A DNA stretch of 37,413 nt from a virus. The notes under the pieces are model-generated. The model ran no database searches. It was given only the letters and a program-made list of their open reading frames with translations, and had not been told where the DNA came from. Below, in pieces: positions 2,966-29,335 of the stretch. Each line of letters opens with the position of its first letter. Position 1 is the stretch's first letter. Location of the stretch: the IMG/VR virus record IMGVR_UViG_3300033993_001401, positions 1 to 37,413 of that record; one strand, 5' to 3'. Position numbers and translations under genes: made by a program.

Positions 2966-4746
2966 TAGTTATTATCTTCGTCGTTATCGTCGTTATTATC
3001 TTCGTCATTATCTGAGTTATCTGAATTATTAAATTCATCCATATTAACTTCGGGAATTACATTACTTGCAACAGCATCAAAACGTGGTGCTAACTTTGCA
3101 TCAATAGCATTTTTAATAGCTGTGTAATCATTATTCATAATATCAAAGCCTTCATCGTAATACAATTCTGTAACAGCATCAAAAACAAACTGCGCGCTTA
3201 TTGCATCCTTTTCTGTTATTTGGCCCGATGCTAACAAATTTACGCGTTCATCTACCGTATAAAGATAAGCACTATTATACATTGCGCAAATGGTAGCTAT
3301 TTGGCGCGCTATTGCATCAGAATTGTAACGGCGATCAACATAGCTAATATAACTTTCGTAACGTATAGCAGTCGGCAAACCTTTTTGCGATAGTGCAAAT
3401 TCTGCCATCAATTCTGTTTCGGTTTTAAGGTCAAAACTGATAGGCGGGTTTACCATTATTGCACTTTCGGTATCCATAAACACAATGGCCTGAATAATAC
3501 GTAAAACATCCTTATAACGCGCATAAACATCATCGCTAATTTTACCTACTTCAATATATTCTGGTTCGCGGTCTAATTCTTTAGCCACGCCCGATTGTGC
3601 AGCTTTTAAACTACGGTTAATGTTTAGCACTTGTTCGGCTTTTCCTAACGCCTCAGAAGCTACTTTGTTAGTTTCTTGAATAGTTGAAACATCAGGGCTA
3701 TAATATCTTATCGGTTCAACTTGCTGTTTATCATTATCTCCAAACTTAGATGTAGTAGGATTTAAGTTATACGCTGCCAATGGCGTAATGCTTAGCACTT
3801 TGCCGTGCCCGTGACAAGTTTTACAAGTTATGCTATTATCGTAGTTATTTGGGTCTGGTACGCGGCCCACACCATTACAGCTATTACAATCAACCCCTTC
3901 AACAAATTTAATAGGGAAGCATGTCGCAAGCATAACCGATTTATGCTGATTGTCAAATATAGCAGCATCATTAAGATACGGTATTGCAGGGCTAAAATCA
4001 GACTTATAAATTTTAAACGTATTGCCATAAGAATCATATTTAGGTACAACGCGACCGCCTAAAGTTACCCACGGCATTACACCGCTGTTGTGTTCATAGA
4101 TAACCTCAAACATTGTTTTGTCACCATAGCTACGGGCCTGCGCATAAAACATATCTGTAACAATATGATAATAAAGCGGATTTTCAATGCCTAAAGTTGA
4201 ATATTTATTTTTGCTTATGCCTTTATAAATTAGTAGTCTGTATTCAGGGTCATTAAAAATAATCCTATCAGACTGAATTACTTTCATATCTACATTAACG
4301 CGCACGTTATCGGTTTCAATACCTTCTCCTTTAGGTTCGATAAGTAAAACGGCGTTCGGATCAAGTACGCGATTGGGAATAAAAACAGAAAATACAAAAG
4401 ACTGCAAAGTATTTTCGCCAAACTTTTCATTTTCTGCAAATTGTTGCATGTCCATATTTTCAAACCTAACAGAATGCTTAGCTGAACTTAGAAGCCTATG
4501 CAGTTCGGTTATTGCCTTAACCAATGGCGATTCTGTTTTAGGCTGATATGTATTTTTACGATAGTTTAATATCTGTTCATCTTCATTTGGAAATGCTTTA
4601 TCTAACGCAGGCGGCACTTCACCGTAGAAGTGAGGCTTAATGCTTTCATAAATACGCTTCCAATCCGCTTTGAATGGGTGTACAGGCGGATTTAGTATTG
4701 TAGCATTTACAGTATTTAAAAATTCGTAAAACTGTTCTATGTTCAT
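2965..4746 (-). CDS. portal protein with an inserted CxxCxGxG zinc ribbon
   Basis: The portal forms the ring through which DNA is packaged and ejected. The call rests on length (593 aa), the mixed alpha/beta N-terminal core, the long helical stretch after residue 360 (KVASEALGKAEQVLNINRSL) and its place next to a Mu F-like gene. Odd feature: residues 287-315 hold CNSCNGVG and CKTCHGHG, with C287, C290, C308 and C311 arranged as one DnaJ-type zinc site. The C-terminus is a repetitive acidic tail of D, N and E. TerL is on the same strand but 13 kb upstream, not adjacent as in many phages. Family is inferred; the zinc site is seen directly. Confidence 0.8.
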   Translation of the reverse strand: MNIEQFYEFLNTVNATILNPPVHPFKADWKRIYESIKPHFYGEVPPALDKAFPNEDEQILNYRKNTYQPKTESPLVKAITELHRLLSSAKHSVRFENMDMQQFAENEKFGENTLQSFVFSVFIPNRVLDPNAVLLIEPKGEGIETDNVRVNVDMKVIQSDRIIFNDPEYRLLIYKGISKNKYSTLGIENPLYYHIVTDMFYAQARSYGDKTMFEVIYEHNSGVMPWVTLGGRVVPKYDSYGNTFKIYKSDFSPAIPYLNDAAIFDNQHKSVMLATCFPIKFVEGVDCNSCNGVGRVPDPNNYDNSITCKTCHGHGKVLSITPLAAYNLNPTTSKFGDNDKQQVEPIRYYSPDVSTIQETNKVASEALGKAEQVLNINRSLKAAQSGVAKELDREPEYIEVGKISDDVYARYKDVLRIIQAIVFMDTESAIMVNPPISFDLKTETELMAEFALSQKGLPTAIRYESYISYVDRRYNSDAIARQIATICAMYNSAYLYTVDERVNLLASGQITEKDAISAQFVFDAVTELYYDEGFDIMNNDYTAIKNAIDAKLAPRFDAVASNVIPEVNMDEFNNSDNSDNDEDNNDDNDEDNN

Positions 4747-15544: not shown

Positions 15545-15856
15545 ATGAAAACACTACTTTTTATTTTACTATTTAGCGCCGCAGCATACGCGCAAACAGA
15601 CACTATGTACTGCATTCAGATACTTAGCACACGACACCCTGAATTTATACGCGCTGAACACTTAGCGATGTGTACAATAGAACAAGCGCAAGTTGAACAA
15701 ACAGATAGCCTATACAGGATTATGTTTGTTTACAACACACTTGAAGAAGCTGAAATTATGCTAACCACGTGGAAGCGCGCACACAAAGACGCGTTTATTT
15801 GCCGCCGTACATCACAACAAGTTTTAAACTTTTATCAATTTTACACTTATGATTAA
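15545..15856 (+). CDS. exported SPOR-like protein (103 aa)
   Basis: Residues 1-16 form a signal peptide (MKTLLFILLFSAAAYA, cut before Q17). The mature part resembles a SPOR domain: YCIQILST near the start, then a helix (AEHLAMCTIEQA), YRIMFVYNTLEEAEIMLTTW and KDAFICRR near the end. SPOR domains bind denuded glycan strands in the periplasm. The stop overlaps the sigma-factor ATG by 8 bases, so the two are translated together, an unusual pairing. A role in cell-wall sensing, superinfection control or lysis is conceivable; none can be shown. The SPOR call is by pattern only and has weaker support than the signal peptide. Confidence 0.6.
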   Translation: MKTLLFILLFSAAAYAQTDTMYCIQILSTRHPEFIRAEHLAMCTIEQAQVEQTDSLYRIMFVYNTLEEAEIMLTTWKRAHKDAFICRRTSQQVLNFYQFYTYD

Positions 15857-16616
15857 GCATATAGATATCAAAGGCAATAACCACCGAAACAAAAAAGGTA
15901 TACTACAGCAGTTCTTAACCGAAGCGCAAAAGTATAAGCCGCTAACATTCGAACAGGAACGAACAGCAACACGTGACCAGCTAATCAATCACAATATGTT
16001 ATTTGCCGCATCAGTTGCGTTCCGTTACGATACTGCACAAGTTGATATAATGGACCTAATAAGTGAGGCTATGTTCGGCCTAATCAAAGCAGCCGATACG
16101 TTTAACCCGGCGTTTGAAAATAAATTTATCAGTTACGCATTATTTCAGATTCAGCGCTACATCAAAGACTTTATTGATACTAAGAAAAACTGCGTAAGGC
16201 TGCCACATCGAATATCTCAGGTTCGATACCAAATCGGTAAGTATGAAGAAACAGATAGTTACCTGTTATCAGAAAAACTAAACATACCTGAAAATATTAT
16301 CAAATCAGCGCAAAGTATTACAAGCTTCGTTAGCTTAGACGATACTAATGAAGATGGCGATAAAATATATCAGGTTGCATCAGATGATCAAACAGATAAA
16401 CACGTTTTACAGTTAGAACTAAAGGAACTTTACAACGAAGTTACCGAATGTTTAACATGCCGTGAATTAGAAGTTTTAAGGTATAGATACTTTGATAACT
16501 TCCCGCAAGATTTAAGCCAAGTAGCTGAAAAACTAAAACTCTGTCGTGAACGTGTCAGGCAAATAGAAAAACAAGCGTATAAAAAAATAAGAAATAAATA
16601 TGCAAACGGAATCTAA
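15849..16616 (+). CDS. phage-encoded RNA polymerase sigma-70 family factor
   Basis: Region 2 is clear at residues about 46-118 (DIMDLISEAMFGLIKAADTF, ISYALFQIQRYIKDFI), where the -10 box is opened and core polymerase is bound. Region 4 lies at about 196-249 (LTCRELEVLRYRYF, then the helix-turn-helix LSQVAEKLKLCRERVRQIEK). The segment between is a short region 3. Region 1.1 is absent. At 255 aa it is shorter than host RpoD but complete for promoter recognition. It would direct host polymerase to phage promoters. It overlaps the SPOR-like gene by 8 bases and the next gene by 17. Its targets cannot be told; late genes or the AT-rich promoters are candidates. Confidence 0.9.
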   Translation: MIKHIDIKGNNHRNKKGILQQFLTEAQKYKPLTFEQERTATRDQLINHNMLFAASVAFRYDTAQVDIMDLISEAMFGLIKAADTFNPAFENKFISYALFQIQRYIKDFIDTKKNCVRLPHRISQVRYQIGKYEETDSYLLSEKLNIPENIIKSAQSITSFVSLDDTNEDGDKIYQVASDDQTDKHVLQLELKELYNEVTECLTCRELEVLRYRYFDNFPQDLSQVAEKLKLCRERVRQIEKQAYKKIRNKYANGI

Positions 16617-17877: not shown

Positions 17878-19329
17878 TTATAGTTTTATATCTTGACAAA
17901 ACGTGTTAAGTAAGTATCTAAGATTATCAAGTAAGTCGGCCTGCCTTTCTTCTCCTTTGCCCTTAATGATTCGCCTGCTGTTATCAGATTTGATACGTAA
18001 ACAGTCCATACGCAAACCCGGGCATTTATCTTCATAGATCTCGAAATCTGGGCACATGCTAATAATAGTATTTGTTTGAACGTAGCTTTCAGCATGCAGC
18101 GGGTTAGCTTTAGGCACTACAAAGAACCGCGCGGGTAACTGCAGTTCTTCTTGTATAATTTCATAGTATGTTTTTGAAACGCGCTGTCTACCATCGGAAC
18201 GATCACCTGATGCATCACCTGTAATCAGTAGCGGTATAGTACAGGGGTAAATAGCAGTATCGGACCAACGCCCGATTTTCTTATTTGTTTCGGCAAATAC
18301 CCATTCACGAAACGCTTGACACGTGTCATAGATTGAAGCTTCACCGCGTTCTTCTGAACCTATCTTAAATTCTTTAACGATGTGTACACCGTAACGATAA
18401 CGTGAACGTGCAGATACATCAGGCGCCAATGTAGTTTTGCGCATAACGGCGGCGGTCATTGGTATTTTATTAAAGTCAAACGAAACGTAAATCTGCTCAG
18501 TTTCCCAATTGATTTTCTTTGAAGGCTGAAATACTTTTTGCTGAATGCTTTTATCCTTTAGTACGTAAACCCATGCTTCACCACTATAATCAACAAATAC
18601 AGATTTGTATTCCTGTTCAAATGTTAGCCTATCTAAGTCACGGCTTGCATCAGCAACTTCATCAGGATCAATAGCTGGGTTATCTGTTGTTTCCATGCGA
18701 AACGTTATCCAACTTTCGCTGCCGTTTTCGCTTTGCGGCAAGTCTATATCATTGTAGCAATTCTTTTCGACATTGCCAGCCTTAGCGCCGTTGCGGCATA
18801 GTTCATACCAATAGTTATCTTTACCCGCTGCTGTGCCAATAAAAAACGCCTCACCTTTGTAGTCAGTTAAGGTAGGGCGTGCAACTGTTTTCCAATGATA
18901 TTCTAATATGTGGCTTGGTATCTTTTGTGTTTCTTCATAAATTACCCGGTGATACTTACGCCCGCGCCCTTTATCCTTTCGCCCTTCATCGCCAATGGAC
19001 CAAACTTCTAAAACGCCGCCGTTTAGAAACTGCATTATCTTTGAAGTTTCATCTTTATGTTTAATGATGCCGCCCTCAGATATAGTTTTGTAAGTATCGA
19101 CAATCTTATTCCAGCTTTGTGCAAAATCTTTGAAGTCATCAACAAAGATACCTACGAACTTACCTTCAAATACTGCTGGGCTTATAAGCGGCAATGCAAC
19201 CGATGTTATCAATTCAGTCTTGCCAAACCTACGCGCACAAACAATACAGTTAAACCTTCGCTTATTATCTAAGATTCGTTTTTGCCCGGTGTGCGGCTTA
19301 TATAGCTGTATGTTTATGTTACGCGGCAC
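17878..19329 (-). CDS. terL: terminase large subunit
   Basis: The packaging motor cuts concatemers and pumps DNA through the portal. The ATPase domain has Walker A CARRFGKT (31-38), Walker B VIYEE (E132, E133) and coupling motif FIGTAAG (163-169). The nuclease domain has SFDFN (D285), TGDAS (D372) and ADLLDNLRY (D465, D468), acidic residues of the RNase H-like fold. The start is GTG, overlapping the TerS stop as TAGTG, which suggests coupled translation. At 483 aa it is complete. Confidence 0.93.
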   Translation of the reverse strand: MPRNINIQLYKPHTGQKRILDNKRRFNCIVCARRFGKTELITSVALPLISPAVFEGKFVGIFVDDFKDFAQSWNKIVDTYKTISEGGIIKHKDETSKIMQFLNGGVLEVWSIGDEGRKDKGRGRKYHRVIYEETQKIPSHILEYHWKTVARPTLTDYKGEAFFIGTAAGKDNYWYELCRNGAKAGNVEKNCYNDIDLPQSENGSESWITFRMETTDNPAIDPDEVADASRDLDRLTFEQEYKSVFVDYSGEAWVYVLKDKSIQQKVFQPSKKINWETEQIYVSFDFNKIPMTAAVMRKTTLAPDVSARSRYRYGVHIVKEFKIGSEERGEASIYDTCQAFREWVFAETNKKIGRWSDTAIYPCTIPLLITGDASGDRSDGRQRVSKTYYEIIQEELQLPARFFVVPKANPLHAESYVQTNTIISMCPDFEIYEDKCPGLRMDCLRIKSDNSRRIIKGKGEERQADLLDNLRYLLNTFCQDIKL

Positions 19330-19757
19330 TACTTAGCTTCAGGTGGGTATTGAATGTTGATGTTTATGTTTTTGTCATCTTGCGTTTCGCCCTTCGGTTC
19401 TATTATGCCATAGTTAAACCCTAACAATAGTTTAGTAATTGCAGGATTTGATTTGCCATCTAAACCCCTTACTACTTTGTTTGTTAGTATTTTATGTTTC
19501 GCGCGCGCTATAAATACCGAAAATTCAGGCCTTTCGGCGTAATTTAAAAGCGTATCAGCATCACAATCTAAAAAATCAGCTAAACCATAGATAGTATATG
19601 GTATTGGGTCTGGCAAATCAATTACTTCATAATAGTCACGTGTTTTTACGACTTCTTTTTTTGTACGTGAATCGCAATAATCAAAATACGCTTCAATTTT
19701 ACTTTGCAGTTCTTCGGGCGTTTTAAATAACAATTTTCTACCTGCAATTCCTTTCAT
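19329..19757 (-). CDS. terS: terminase small subunit
   Basis: This 142-aa protein lies just upstream of TerL and overlaps it. The middle part (IYGLADFLDCDADTLLNYAE) is a helix-turn-helix of the kind small terminases use to bind the packaging site; the following part is helical and would form the oligomer ring. The C-terminus is polar and rich in N, I and P and may contact TerL. The 454-bp non-coding region just upstream could hold the packaging site. Identification is from position, size and the HTH. Confidence 0.8.
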   Translation of the reverse strand: MKGIAGRKLLFKTPEELQSKIEAYFDYCDSRTKKEVVKTRDYYEVIDLPDPIPYTIYGLADFLDCDADTLLNYAERPEFSVFIARAKHKILTNKVVRGLDGKSNPAITKLLLGFNYGIIEPKGETQDDKNININIQYPPEAK

Positions 19758-19920
19758 ATTTTCATTTTAAGCAACTTTTAATAAGTTTTGATATCTATAC
19801 ACCAATTTAATATAAAAATGCCTTAAAACACCTTTTAAATAAGTTTTAAGACTATATCTATATTATTATTAGTATTATTATTTATATTATTATTATTATT
19901 TATTATTATTGTTAACACTT

Positions 19921-19937
19921 GTTACATTAAGTGTAAC
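19921..19937. repeat. inverted repeat GTTACA-N5-TGTAAC, copy 1
   Basis: The arms GTTACA and TGTAAC are perfect, with spacer TTAAG. The same arms with the same spacing occur at 20111. This is typical of a site for a dimeric DNA-binding protein. Confidence 0.75.
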
Positions 19938-20110
19938 ACATAAGTAATTGATATATAGTACATGTTACGTGTTTACACCTGTTACGCTATATTCTACACA
20001 CATATGTATTTTTTAGTTTAAATACGCATGTGTGTGTATGCGTCGTATGTGAGAAAAACCCCGTAACGGGTGTTAACAGCGTAACAAAACTAATAATCAA
20101 ACAGTTAGGT

Positions 20111-20127
20111 GTTACATGCTGTGTAAC
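20111..20127. repeat. inverted repeat GTTACA-N5-TGTAAC, copy 2
   Basis: The arms are identical to those at 19921 while the spacer (TGCTG) differs, so the arms rather than the centre appear to be selected. A GTTAAC motif follows 4 bases later. Confidence 0.75.
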
Positions 20128-20145
20128 CTGTGTTAACATTTCAAA

Positions 20146-20178
20146 TAAAAAAACCGCTGCAATTGTTGAACAGCGGTT
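20146..20178 (-). terminator. Rho-independent terminator after the HNH-like gene
   Basis: AACCGCTG (20152-20159) and CAGCGGTT (20171-20178) form an 8-bp stem; on the minus strand it is followed by seven T. It lies 34 bases beyond the stop of the gene ending at 20212 and closes the CoiA-HNH transcript. The core arms CCGCTG/CAGCGG recur in the terminator at 35870. Confidence 0.8.
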
Positions 20179-20211
20179 AGCGGCAAACCGCAGTTAAGGC
20201 AAAAGTAAGTA

Positions 20212-20481
20212 TTAGTTTTCAGATTTTAAAACTTTTCGATGTGAAAATTCAATATTTGATTTTTGATAGTTCAACGGATTGCCATCTAAAAACGTCATAG
20301 TGTACTTTAAATCATGGTTTTTAAGCGGAAAAAGCAAATGATGTAATAACATGCCAGTATTGTTTATAATCCTATTTTTTTTAACATGCCATTTAAAGTT
20401 TTTGCATTTTTCGTAATCAGAATCATCAATCATAATGTAGTCAATACAAAGATTGCGTTTGAAGATTTGAAGTAGTTTCAT
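20212..20481 (-). CDS. HNH-like homing endonuclease relative with altered active-site motif (89 aa)
   Basis: The pattern IMIDDSDYEKCKNFKWHV, then LLHHLLF, then FLDGNPLNYQKSNIEF follows the small AP2/HNH endonuclease family, whose members read roughly VDDEDYELLxxxKW, xHRLI and DHINGNPLDNRRSNL. In this copy the DH of the last motif is TF (YTMTFLDGN), so the usual catalytic histidine appears lost. It may be a worn-out nuclease or a DNA-binding remnant. I chose the ATG at 20481, where the homology begins; an ATG at 20529 is also possible. It overlaps the CoiA-like gene by 41 bases. Confidence 0.5.
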   Translation of the reverse strand: MKLLQIFKRNLCIDYIMIDDSDYEKCKNFKWHVKKNRIINNTGMLLHHLLFPLKNHDLKYTMTFLDGNPLNYQKSNIEFSHRKVLKSEN

Positions 20482-21364
20482 TTGCGTATTTTTTAATAAA
20501 ATCTGATTTTTTAATAATTTCACCTGCATTGTATAAACAATTAAAACCTTTATCAGGCTTTATTTCCATTTCAAAAAAAACTTCATTTTCTGTAAAATCA
20601 CCTGAAAGCCCTGTTGATTCATTAGCACTTGCAGTTATCCATACAGAATTCCTATAATCAGGTGTATCAACTATTTTTTTATGAAATATAATTTTAAAAT
20701 CATTAGTAAAATTTATAAATTCATTTTGTTTAAATCTAAAATAAATTAAATTACCATCATTAGTATCAATAAAAACAGGATTTTTACAAATATCAAAAAA
20801 ATAAGATTTAGTTTTAAATTTTTTAGATTGTTTATATTTTATGTATTTTTCTCTTTCGATTTTTAAATAACTTAAAGTTTTAAATGTTTCAGATAAAGAT
20901 TCTAAATCATAGTTAATAGATTCTTTGTAAGGTGTTTTATCAGGATATGCAACTAATTCAACTTTAAATTTGCTTGCATCTAAAACCCAAATCATTTTTT
21001 CACCATAAAATTCTTCTCTTGCTCTTATTTCTTGCGGGGTTATTGAACTATGCTGAAATTCTATAACAATACCATTATCTGTTTTAACATCAGCTATATG
21101 TTTTTCGCCTGTTTGTTCGCATTTATGTATAATTTCTCTATTTTTTTCTGGAAATTGTTTTTGCCAATTTAAATGCCATTCTGTCATAGGTTTAAACCAA
21201 TTAGAACATTCATTTTTAACTTTGTGTGAAAAATGCCAAACATTTATTTCTCCTTGTTTAGCTACAACTTGACTATTGCAACACGGGCATCTTAAATCTA
21301 AATTTTCAGATTTTTTATACTCTTCTGCACTTACTTTTTTGTTATCATATAACGCGTAATTCAT
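20441..21364 (-). CDS. CoiA-like nuclease family protein (307 aa)
   Basis: The N-terminus has a zinc-ribbon pattern: RCPCCNSQ (C26, C28, C29), then VWHFSH (H44, H47). The middle shows TEWHLNWQKQF and then HIADV (D92) and IEFQHSSIT (E102, Q104), matching the nuclease core of the CoiA family, whose founding member acts in competence and DNA uptake. The C-terminal 150 residues are rich in K, F and N and not recognised. In a phage such a protein might process DNA during recombination or act on host DNA. It follows a structured leader (21365-21481) that may control it. Confidence 0.7.
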   Translation of the reverse strand: MNYALYDNKKVSAEEYKKSENLDLRCPCCNSQVVAKQGEINVWHFSHKVKNECSNWFKPMTEWHLNWQKQFPEKNREIIHKCEQTGEKHIADVKTDNGIVIEFQHSSITPQEIRAREEFYGEKMIWVLDASKFKVELVAYPDKTPYKESINYDLESLSETFKTLSYLKIEREKYIKYKQSKKFKTKSYFFDICKNPVFIDTNDGNLIYFRFKQNEFINFTNDFKIIFHKKIVDTPDYRNSVWITASANESTGLSGDFTENEVFFEMEIKPDKGFNCLYNAGEIIKKSDFIKKYANETTSNLQTQSLY

Positions 21365-22957: not shown

Positions 22958-23206
22958 ATGAAAACATTTGAACAGCTATCTATTCGATGCGACATTTTAG
23001 GCATCAGTATTTCGGAACTTTGCAGGCGCGCAGAAGTTGGGCGGCAAACTGTTGAATACTGGTCTAAGGTTGAACCGCAAACATTGATCATCTATTTTAA
23101 ACTTATGAATGCTTTAAACCAAATTGAAAATGAACACAATACAGCTACGGCCATATCAATCGAAAAGCGTAAGCGACATAAGAGAGAGTTACCGACAGGG
23201 GAATAA
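22958..23206 (+). CDS. small helix-turn-helix DNA-binding protein (82 aa)
   Basis: Residues about 12-40 (DILGISISELCRRAEVGRQT) form an XRE/lambda-repressor-type helix-turn-helix, ending VEYWSKVEP. The rest is polar. Being first in the rightward operon and beside two facing promoters, it is a candidate Cro- or repressor-like regulator. The 3' end overlaps the helicase gene by about 77 bases, so the final 25 residues are read from DNA that also codes for the helicase start. Confidence 0.7.
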   Translation: MKTFEQLSIRCDILGISISELCRRAEVGRQTVEYWSKVEPQTLIIYFKLMNALNQIENEHNTATAISIEKRKRHKRELPTGE

Positions 23207-26647: not shown

Positions 26648-27018
26648 AAGAACAAGACCTATACAAGGCCCTTCAAGCTAAACACAGCAAACACGGCATT
26701 TTATTTCGTAATAATACTGGAACAGCATTTCAGGGCAAACGGGCGGTTATAAACAGCCGCCCTATAATAACCGAACCGCGGCAAATAACTTTTGGGCTTT
26801 GCGTTGGTAGTTCTGATTTAATCGGATGGACTGAAAAAATTATAACTAAAGATATGGTAGGTAAAAAAATTGCTATATTTACAGCCCTCGAAGTTAAAAA
26901 CCTTAGCGGTAAAGCTACAAAAGAACAAATCAATTTTATTAAACAAGTCAGAAAATCGGGCGGCATTGGTGATATTTTGCGCTGGGTAGATGAAGACTTT
27001 AAAGCAGATGAGATATGA
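26644..27018 (+). CDS. VRR-NUC domain nuclease (124 aa)
   Basis: Nearly the whole protein is one VRR-NUC domain: N-terminal E3, GSSDLIGW (D58), ALEVKN (E83, K85), then GKATKEQINFIKQVRKSGG (Q95). This small PD-(D/E)XK family includes phage nucleases and the FAN1 core, and acts on branched or flapped DNA. It lies just before the DnaB-type gene, pointing to a role in replication or recombination. All key residues are present. Confidence 0.85.
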   Translation: MKEQDLYKALQAKHSKHGILFRNNTGTAFQGKRAVINSRPIITEPRQITFGLCVGSSDLIGWTEKIITKDMVGKKIAIFTALEVKNLSGKATKEQINFIKQVRKSGGIGDILRWVDEDFKADEI

Positions 27019-27626
27019 AAACAGAAGCGGAAAACCTACTATCTGAACTTAAAGACGAAGCATTAAAGATGGATGCTTATATTAAAGACGATACTAAGCG
27101 CCAAAATTACAGGCAACTTAAAGAACGCCAACTTTTAACGTTGCAAAATATCATTATTGCACTTGAAGAAAAAGAGCAAAGTTTTTTTGAAAAACAAATT
27201 ACGTTCCCGCATTCTAAAGACTTAGAACAGGTTATTTTAGGTGCTATCTTAGTAGATAATAATGCCCGTGACAAAGTTAATTTTTTAAGCCCTGAGCATT
27301 TTTATTTTGATAATCACAAACTTATTTTTGAACTTTGCCAATCGGTTGAAGTGGTAGATATAATTACCGTGGCTGAAAAATTAAAATATCGTTGCGGTGG
27401 CCCTGCATATTTAGCTGAATTAACAAACCGGGTAGCAAGTTCTGCTAATTTAGAATACCATGCACGAATACTAATTCAAAAGCATGTACAGCGCGAACTT
27501 ATAGTATCGTCAATACAAATGATAAATACAATTATCGCTGATACTGAGGATGTTTTTGATACTGTGCGAGGGCTAATGCAAAATATCAAAAAGTTTAACG
27601 TTGGCAAACAAATAGTAAGACAATGA
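27015..27626 (+). CDS. stand-alone DnaB N-terminal-like domain protein (203 aa)
   Basis: Residues about 62-165 match the helicase DnaB N-terminal domain: FPHSKDLEQVILGAILVDNN, PEHFYFDNHKLIFELC, VAEKLKYRCGGPAYLAELTN. In full DnaB this part contacts primase and is followed by a RecA-like ATPase; here the gene ends soon after, with no Walker motifs. The next gene codes for a P-loop NTPase of a different type. The N-terminal 50 residues are a coiled coil. It may load or guide that NTPase. The call of this domain is firm; its job is inferred. Confidence 0.8.
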   Translation: MKTEAENLLSELKDEALKMDAYIKDDTKRQNYRQLKERQLLTLQNIIIALEEKEQSFFEKQITFPHSKDLEQVILGAILVDNNARDKVNFLSPEHFYFDNHKLIFELCQSVEVVDIITVAEKLKYRCGGPAYLAELTNRVASSANLEYHARILIQKHVQRELIVSSIQMINTIIADTEDVFDTVRGLMQNIKKFNVGKQIVRQ

Positions 27627-29335
27627 AACAACAAAAACCAATAGACTGGGAACAAAAACCGAAACAAACAAAGAAACCTAAAGCAGAACGGCCAGCAGCA
27701 TCAGCACCTGAAACAGATAAAAAAGGTTTTATAGGTGGATATTTTAGGCCGTTAGGCTGGGGAACTGAAGATGGGCAAATGCTTTATTATTTTTACATTC
27801 GTTCAACAATGTCAATAGTAAAGTACAAAGCTGTAACAATAAACAAGGCTAATTTATTGAGCATAGCGCCTCTTGAATTTTGGGTGACAAGTTTTCCGAA
27901 CCGCGACAATAGTAATTACGAAGTAACTACGGCGGCCGATTATCTTATAAATTTCTGTAATGCCATAGGTTTTTACAATACTGAAAACATACGCGGTCGT
28001 GGTGCATGGCAAGAAAAAAACGGCGTTGTATTTCATGCTGGGCAACAACTTATACAGGATAAAAAGCGCTACAATTTAGGCGGCTTAGATACTAAATACA
28101 GCTATGTTTATAATAAGGCAATTGATATGCCAATTGAAGCCGCGCTGCTGCCTACTGAAGCGGGTATGATACCTAAGATGTTAAACAAGCTGAATTGGCA
28201 AACAAAGGCCGATGCAATACTATTATCGGGTTGGTTAGCATTGGCGCCAATTTCAGGTATATTAAAATGGAGGCCTCACGTTTGGATAACAGGACCGCGC
28301 GGTAATGGCAAATCATGGGTTTTAGAAAATATTATAAATGAAGTTATTGGTAATATCGCCGTAAGTGTACAGGGCACAGCGGCAACCGAACCAGCAGTAA
28401 GGCAAAAATTAAATTCAGATGCACTACCTGTAACAATAGATGAAGGCGAAGGTAATGATGAACGCGCAGCTCAACGCATGCAGGAAATAATAGGATTAGC
28501 AAGGGCAGCAAGTAGTGAGAAATCACCTGCAATAGCTAAAGGCGGCAAAGATGGTAAAGCAATTGATTATTTTGTTAGAAGCTGTTTTTTATTTGTAAGT
28601 ATAAATCCGCAGTTAGTAAATGATTCAGATAAGCGGCGTTTTTGTGTTTTAGAACTAAAAAAGTTACCAGACCCGAAACAATTTAACGAACTTGAAAAGC
28701 TAAAAAGCAAAGTTATTACTGATGATTTTGGGCCACGTTTTCAAGCGCGAATGTTAAACTTAGCAGATAACATTCAAAAAAGCATTAAGCTATTCACAAA
28801 CGCAGTATCGTTATTAACTGAGGACAGGGCAGTAGGTGATCAGTTTGGTGCGCTTATGGGCGGTTGGTGGCATACGCTGCACGATGACCCGGTAACGGCC
28901 GAAATAGCATTAGAAGAAGCAAACGCAATTTTAGAAATGCGCAAATATGAAGAAGACAAAGAAGATTTGACAGATGAACAAAGATGTTTACAGCAAATTT
29001 TAAGTCAGGAAATACGAATAGAAGCGGAAAATTACGTAGGTACTAAAACCGTTGGCGAACTTGTAGAATGCGCACACAACTATCAGCCATCAGTTAAGCC
29101 ATCACAAGCTGAAGCGAACGAAAGGTTAATGCGTTTAGGTATCCGGGTAATTGGTGATGACTTACTAATACTGAATACATCTGTTTATGTAAAAAAAGTT
29201 TTAAGCGGCACGCCTTGGCAAATATCATGGAATACTATCTTATTAAGGCTTAAAGGCGCATCACGGCGAAGTAATACGCGTTTTGCAGCTGGTATGTCTG
29301 GGCGGTGCGTTTCAATAAATTTAAAAAATTTATAA
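27623..29335 (+). CDS. replicative P-loop NTPase / primase-helicase-like protein (570 aa)
   Basis: Walker A is GPRGNGKS (224-231); Walker B is VTIDEGE (D273, E274); sensor-like FVSINPQ follows near residue 325. The long N-terminal part (1-200) is not recognised but begins with a basic, disordered stretch. The layout resembles phage and plasmid helicases of the SF3/AAA+ group and DUF927-type proteins used instead of DnaB. It is the largest gene of the right arm and overlaps the DnaB N-terminal gene (ATGA). It is followed by a promoter-like module at 29329-29383. Confidence 0.75.
   Translation: MKQQKPIDWEQKPKQTKKPKAERPAASAPETDKKGFIGGYFRPLGWGTEDGQMLYYFYIRSTMSIVKYKAVTINKANLLSIAPLEFWVTSFPNRDNSNYEVTTAADYLINFCNAIGFYNTENIRGRGAWQEKNGVVFHAGQQLIQDKKRYNLGGLDTKYSYVYNKAIDMPIEAALLPTEAGMIPKMLNKLNWQTKADAILLSGWLALAPISGILKWRPHVWITGPRGNGKSWVLENIINEVIGNIAVSVQGTAATEPAVRQKLNSDALPVTIDEGEGNDERAAQRMQEIIGLARAASSEKSPAIAKGGKDGKAIDYFVRSCFLFVSINPQLVNDSDKRRFCVLELKKLPDPKQFNELEKLKSKVITDDFGPRFQARMLNLADNIQKSIKLFTNAVSLLTEDRAVGDQFGALMGGWWHTLHDDPVTAEIALEEANAILEMRKYEEDKEDLTDEQRCLQQILSQEIRIEAENYVGTKTVGELVECAHNYQPSVKPSQAEANERLMRLGIRVIGDDLLILNTSVYVKKVLSGTPWQISWNTILLRLKGASRRSNTRFAAGMSGRCVSINLKNL

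Follow-up and report, generated by a model that had tools for sequence, protein, structure and literature searches.

The array and its surroundings

The window, i.e. the whole stretch of DNA analysed here, comprises 37,413 bases of an IMG/VR virus record, and relatives reaching 46 kb suggest that it is a partial genome. Positions 19758-20211 hold no visible gene, in agreement with an earlier sequence-only reading that described this gap as non-coding. On its left lie the terminase genes TerS (P22 gp3-like family) and TerL on the minus strand, and on its right a CoiA-like gene and small genes. The features of the gap and of the helicase locus are as follows.

19858-19911: ATT-repeat tract, 94% A+T, present in most relatives; candidate unwinding region beside the left arm
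19910-19938: outer-left site triplet, TGTTAACA at 19910-19917, TGTTACA at 19920-19926 and TGTAACA at 19932-19938
19941-19953, minus strand: putative IHF site in the left 31-bp spacer, consensus (WATCARNNNNTTR: TATCAATTACTTA)
19963-19986: inner-left site triplet, TGTTACG at 19963-19969, TGTTTACA at 19970-19977 and TGTTACG at 19980-19986
19987-20061: device centre, with a near-palindrome of alternating purine/pyrimidine at 19995-20038
20062-20086: inner-right site triplet, CGTAACG at 20062-20068, TGTTAACA at 20071-20078 and CGTAACA at 20080-20086
20095-20107, plus strand: putative IHF site in the right spacer, mirror of the left one, consensus AATCAAACAGTTA
20110-20138: outer-right site triplet, TGTTACA at 20110-20116, TGTAAC at 20122-20127 and TGTTAACA at 20131-20138
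20145-20178, minus strand: terminator-like hairpin with a U tract, AACCGCTG at 20152-20159 and CAGCGGTT at 20171-20178, A run at 20145-20153
27015-27626, plus strand: free-standing DnaB N-terminal domain (DnaB-N) protein, overlapping the helicase start
27623-29335, plus strand: proposed initiator, an AAA+/SF3-like helicase of 570 aa with the SCCmec Cch / SaPI Rep / D5 fold in its predicted structure
28940-29335, plus strand: helicase C-terminal domain with a predicted winged-helix-like fold, the proposed site reader

Inverted arms of 64 nt are present at 19896-19959 and 20089-20152, and the true extent of the element is approximately 19858-20138. The adjoining hairpin appears to serve the leftward genes at 20212-21364, as a neighbour outside the putative origin proper. 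Two exact GTTACA-N5-TGTAAC palindromes noticed in the sequence-only reading are confirmed at 19921-19937 and 20111-20127, and the record holds no further exact copies. The field of related motifs is clearly non-random: 9 strict sites fall within 300 bp from 19910, whereas none of 100 shuffled versions of the window exceeded 4, and the strict sites form a single cluster within the window. The long near-palindrome is also found, as a hairpin-like sequence at 19995-20038. What had been called an AT microsatellite does exist as a repeat tract at 19858-19911, but its unit is the ATT trinucleotide and not the AT dinucleotide. This tract touches the left arm and provides an A+T-rich stretch beside the iterons, and the array centre, at 66% A+T vs 65% for the genome, is not enriched. 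An Rfam scan of the window gave no match, and a tRNA search of the window found none.

The cargo slot between Rad52 and the array (20212-21364) varies. It holds a CoiA-like nuclease and a small gene without family match in the window, and methylase or R-M-like genes, among others, in relatives. In one relative, L009, an N6/N4 methylase gene with a fused ParB-N domain (3455-4633) is inserted between the array and TerS.

Conservation of the layout and exchange of the terminase

A TerL search of viral contigs yielded 127 relatives, 80 of which were retained, and the array gap is readable in 57. With near-duplicates removed and the window counted in, the conservation set consists of 44 non-redundant arrays. 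Exactly 12 GTTAC/GTAAC/GTTAAC/GTTTAC cores are present in 41 of these, and 11 cores in 3/44. The spacing is a mirror image across the 44 relatives, with 10-12-31-8-9 in the left arm, 62-85 bp separating the inner sites across the device centre, and 9-8-31-12-10 in the right arm. The 31-bp spacers carry an IHF consensus, on the minus strand of the left spacer in 44/44 relatives (1.2% in shuffles) and on the plus strand of the right spacer in 40/44 (0.2% in shuffles). Comparison of the gap among relatives had been proposed in the sequence-only reading, and over the 44 arrays the fixed two-arm layout of 12 sites is kept. The array thereby provides the multiple copies of a short repeat within a non-coding stretch that an iteron origin requires. 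Single sites are inverted between relatives (TGTTACA/TGTAACA) at constant positions, and therefore the position of the site, not the palindrome, is the conserved unit; the palindromes are real but are not what the relatives retain.

In L005/L006 and L007/L008 the left arm is nearly identical, whereas the right arm and the centre are of two types (window position 20006), as if the arms of the putative origin recombined at the centre. When GenBank phages were searched with the array sequence, the sole match was 43 bases in Tenacibaculum phage pT24.

The array lies directly upstream of TerS-TerL, and arrays precede a terminase in several other array phages, which would suit a cos- or pac-like packaging initiation site where TerS and IHF bind the repeats and TerL cuts the centre. 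Lambda cosB, close to the small terminase gene, has repeated recognition sites with an IHF site between them, and the array recalls this arrangement in its IHF sites between recognition clusters and in the nearby small terminase gene. It differs from cosB in having two symmetric arms and in being independent of the terminase type. Within the group of the window, TerL identity is 91-100% and TerS is of several kinds. The TerS of L009 has only the 16-residue tail DDKNININIQYPPEAK in common with that of the window, and L009 nevertheless keeps an array of the same type. In the sister group L220-L226, which compares with the window at 75-79% for Rad52, 67-69% for Exo and 50-55% for the DEAD type helicase, both TerL and TerS are unrelated to those of the window, and an 11-core array of the same kind lies between Rad52 and their own TerS. 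Contig ends of relatives near the array are scattered over 19424-19980 without pile-up.

A packaging site would be expected to change with the TerS type, and the array stays constant across TerS swaps and terminase replacement. Since it survives both the swap of the TerS N-terminal part and the exchange of the whole terminase, it belongs with the Exo-Rad52-helicase side, and the array appears to go with the replication module. Isolate arrays, moreover, adjoin the helicase rather than the terminase, as in phage phi1422, where the array lies at 14.0 kb and the terminase at 21.5 kb. The phi1422 genome was assembled as a circle and is taken to be circularly permuted (PMC3391216). A packaging site next to the terminase, as put forward in the sequence-only reading, is thus disfavoured, and we consider it improbable. 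Searches among isolates returned no TerL or portal relative with an identity high enough to be useful.

In TerS (19329-19757 in the window; also L009, L011 and L060), the N-terminal DNA-binding part has been repeatedly swapped, and the tail DDKNININIQYPPEAK and TerL are near constant. The small terminase appears to be modular, given this exchanged N-terminal part beside a constant tail.

The sequence-only reading had also proposed an operator cluster. A late-operon operator or enhancer, through which a phage regulator or phage sigma factor activates terS and the structural genes, would be compatible with the location of the array, which has a terminator upstream and the first late gene on its other side. 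The phage does encode a sigma-70-like factor that may drive late transcription; its gene (15849-16616) is on the plus strand, within the late region of the minus strand. An operator would keep a fixed distance to the promoters that it controls; the window, however, has only one cluster, and the distance between array and TerS ranges from 175 to 1671 bp among relatives, with inserted genes accounting for the variation. In other phages, arrays of this type are found downstream of the helicase, and a two-armed symmetry of 12 sites is atypical of operators. Taken together, TerS swaps, terminase replacement, variable distance and scattered contig ends argue against both a TerS-read cos/pac site and a late-operon operator, the latter being in our view very improbable.

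Linkage of arrays to the helicase gene

Eight GenBank isolates were chosen solely for a homologue of the window helicase (27623-29335). In 8/8, an intergenic array of GTTAC-like hexamers is the first- or second-ranked hexamer cluster (CGTAAC, AACGGT, CGTTAC, GTTACA, TGCTAA, ATTACC, GGTAAC and CGTTAG), and in several it touches the helicase gene. A scan restricted to strict TGTAACA missed most of these arrays because the hexamer varies between phages, and a motif-free hexamer scan recovered them. We did not see an origin annotation in the records of these eight isolates, and the array is not mentioned in the available text of the phi1422 paper.

To obtain an unbiased set, we took helicase homology as the only criterion for selecting 121 loci in GTDB genomes and viral contigs, and counted an array as significant when its hexamer cluster exceeded the maximum of 363 shuffles. 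Significant arrays are present in 54/121 loci, and 38 of these 54 start at most 400 bp from the helicase stop codon vs ~5% expected (binomial p ~3e-37). The 38 helicase-adjacent arrays, a count inflated by near-identical cyanobacterial loci, carry 17 different hexamers. The exact-hexamer scan gave no significant array in 67/121 loci, for which truncated contigs, degenerate sites, displaced origins and true absence are possible causes. Displacement from the helicase by 1.4-7.5 kb is seen in several significant arrays, as in the window, where 7.5 kb separate the array from the helicase gene. Site orientation reverses across the centre in 23/30 helicase-locus arrays, and A+T in their centre is 53% vs 39%. 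The (ATT)n tract occurs in 2/34 other arrays and is not a general component.

A further, motif-selected and hence biased set was collected with a permissive triplet pattern and comprises >120 viral contigs with G+C contents of 29-73%. Many of them display the two-armed layout beside primases, AAA+ helicases or members of the helicase family of the window. TGTAACA-type two-armed arrays stand beside VapE, DUF927 with Cch HTH_56, DUF3987, DUF5906 and DUF3631 helicases (L346, L312, L240, L250, L255, L288, L293 and L341), hinting that the layout is common to more than one helicase family. One contig, 3300044675_004667 (46,416 bp), carries two distinct helicase copies at opposite ends, at 93% and 85% to that of the window (L372/L492 and L387/L507), and is possibly a chimeric assembly or two joined phages.

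The proposed origin and its reader

The predicted structure of the helicase (pLDDT 87) has SCCmec Cch (5dgk) as its best match (Foldseek E 1.4e-10; Z 15.7, rmsd 6.0 over 355 residues), followed by NrS-1, poxvirus D5/E5, MCM helicases and SaPI5 PriRep (7ola, Z 13.7). A phmmer search of the helicase sequence against solved structures gave no meaningful match, and the relation is visible by fold comparison alone. By its modelled fold, the protein appears to be related to SCCmec Cch and SaPI Rep, and the window thus seems to encode the Cch / SaPI Rep / D5 type of helicase that a helicase-initiated iteron origin requires. For the C-terminal domain (pLDDT 91), the top match is SaPIbov1 Rep 452-552, with a weak score (Z 5.1, rmsd 3.4 over 85), and weaker matches to other DNA-binding domains, Cch and PriRep1 come next. 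Foldseek with this domain alone returned nothing below E 0.001.

To evaluate covariation, we compared array hexamers with the C-terminal domain (residues 430-570) of the helicases whose loci carry significant arrays. Similarity between hexamers is correlated with C-terminal domain identity (rho 0.25, 46 proteins; rho 0.29 after 95% thinning to 29 proteins, reached in 12/1000 permutations), and is uncorrelated with the ATPase core (rho -0.06) or the N-terminal part. Stricter thinning weakens the covariation, to 35/1000 and then 70/1000 permutations, the latter at 70% core identity. The hexamer thus appears to drift together with the C-terminal domain and not with the ATPase core. From the linkage and the motif covariation, we infer that the C-terminal domain reads the sites.

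We conclude that the gap is very probably an iteron replication origin, composed of two IHF-bent arms of six sites, each taking up a single hexamer of an initiator helicase that is self-loading and encoded 7.5 kb away. Of the possibilities raised in the sequence-only reading, a replication origin with protein sites is the one strongly supported, by the conserved layout and by the helicase linkage. In the mechanism that we propose, the C-terminal domain of the helicase (27623-29335) would be the reader of the 12 sites, and IHF would bend each 3+3 arm so that the six domains of one hexamer meet six sites. Two hexamers would then oppose each other across the centre and melt either the centre or the adjoining ATT tract. 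Bidirectional replication would start, with host enzymes including DNA polymerase following and the neighbouring DnaB-N protein possibly serving as an adaptor for host primase.

It is also conceivable that the gap is an origin whose reader is a different conserved protein, of the phage or of the host. The TGTAACA motif is not private to the helicase family of the window and adjoins several unrelated AAA+ helicase families, and a sister phage encodes a protein similar to the small HTH protein at 22958-23206. Motif drift, however, tracks the helicase C-terminal domain, most of the significant arrays abut the helicase gene, and SaPI Rep and P4 alpha themselves read iterons (PMC7581432, PMC4234260). 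We therefore regard another reader as unlikely. TerS and the HTH protein, suggested earlier as binders, are probably not the proteins involved, and the helicase is the best candidate.

Another reading would make the array the centromere of a phage-plasmid, where a ParB-like protein binds for partition or plasmid maintenance; P1 parS, an IHF-bent multi-site complex, offers an analogy. Among the scanned genes of the window we recognised no ParA/ParB pair, the sole ParB-N domain beside an array is part of the L009 methylase, and the array is linked to the helicase; such a centromere seems to us extremely improbable. GC skew, suggested as a check, gives no usable support for the origin, as the cumulative minimum near 22 kb tracks the gene strand, and the isolates have no consistent skew switch at the array.

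Returning to the iteron origin, known helicase-read systems resemble it in part. PMC7581432 describes a SaPI Rep whose C-terminal domain reads iterons directly downstream of its own gene, apparently as two hexamers, and a Cch2 that requires direct-repeat iterons downstream of its gene. The SaPIbov1/SaPI5 origins share with the array short iterons, the helicase fold and an origin beside the helicase gene (same paper), the last holding for most loci with a significant array; in the group of the window the array is displaced by 7.5 kb. Unlike these satellites, the window is from a tailed phage and has 12 sites of a GTTAC-type motif in a fixed mirror-image 3-IHF-3 arrangement. In SCCmec, Cch is the best structural match of the window helicase and the Cch2 iterons lie downstream of the gene, but the putative Cch2 origin has three AAGTG iterons, and neither a two-armed array nor IHF sites are mentioned in the available text (PMC7581432). 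P4 alpha is a primase-helicase whose winged helix binds origin repeats (PMC4234260), and the isolate homologues of the window helicase likewise carry Toprim or CHC2-type primase parts; the window helicase itself has no primase part and the site layout differs. The SF3 primase-helicase ORF904 of pRN1 has a C-terminal winged helix and an origin that lies downstream of its gene and works when moved, but this origin is a stem-loop without iterons (PMC4234260).

The same layout appears to recur, unannotated, in many unrelated phages. To our knowledge, the origins of most tailed phages are neither known nor annotated. We found no description of such arrays as tailed-phage origins in the open-licence papers, and an earlier description elsewhere is possible. 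Only tentatively, and as a real possibility rather than a probable one, we suggest that the twelve sites act as a stoichiometric loading platform on which a Cch/MCM-like helicase assembles as a double hexamer, and that they represent a general and so far unannotated class of tailed-phage origins in which site and C-terminal domain drift together. The signature of two inverted arms, GTTAC-type sites and, often, IHF spacers would locate the origin and the likely initiator in many phages of very different bacteria, and the fixed 12-site layout could offer a route to how self-loading hexameric helicases assemble pairwise on double-stranded DNA. If the co-drift of site and helicase domain is true, origin specificity would become predictable, which is relevant to satellites and to defence systems acting on phage replication.

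The DnaB-N gene (27015-27626) occupies the place of the fused Toprim/CHC2 primase found in homologues elsewhere. By analogy with the known role of this domain, its product may recruit the host DnaG primase.
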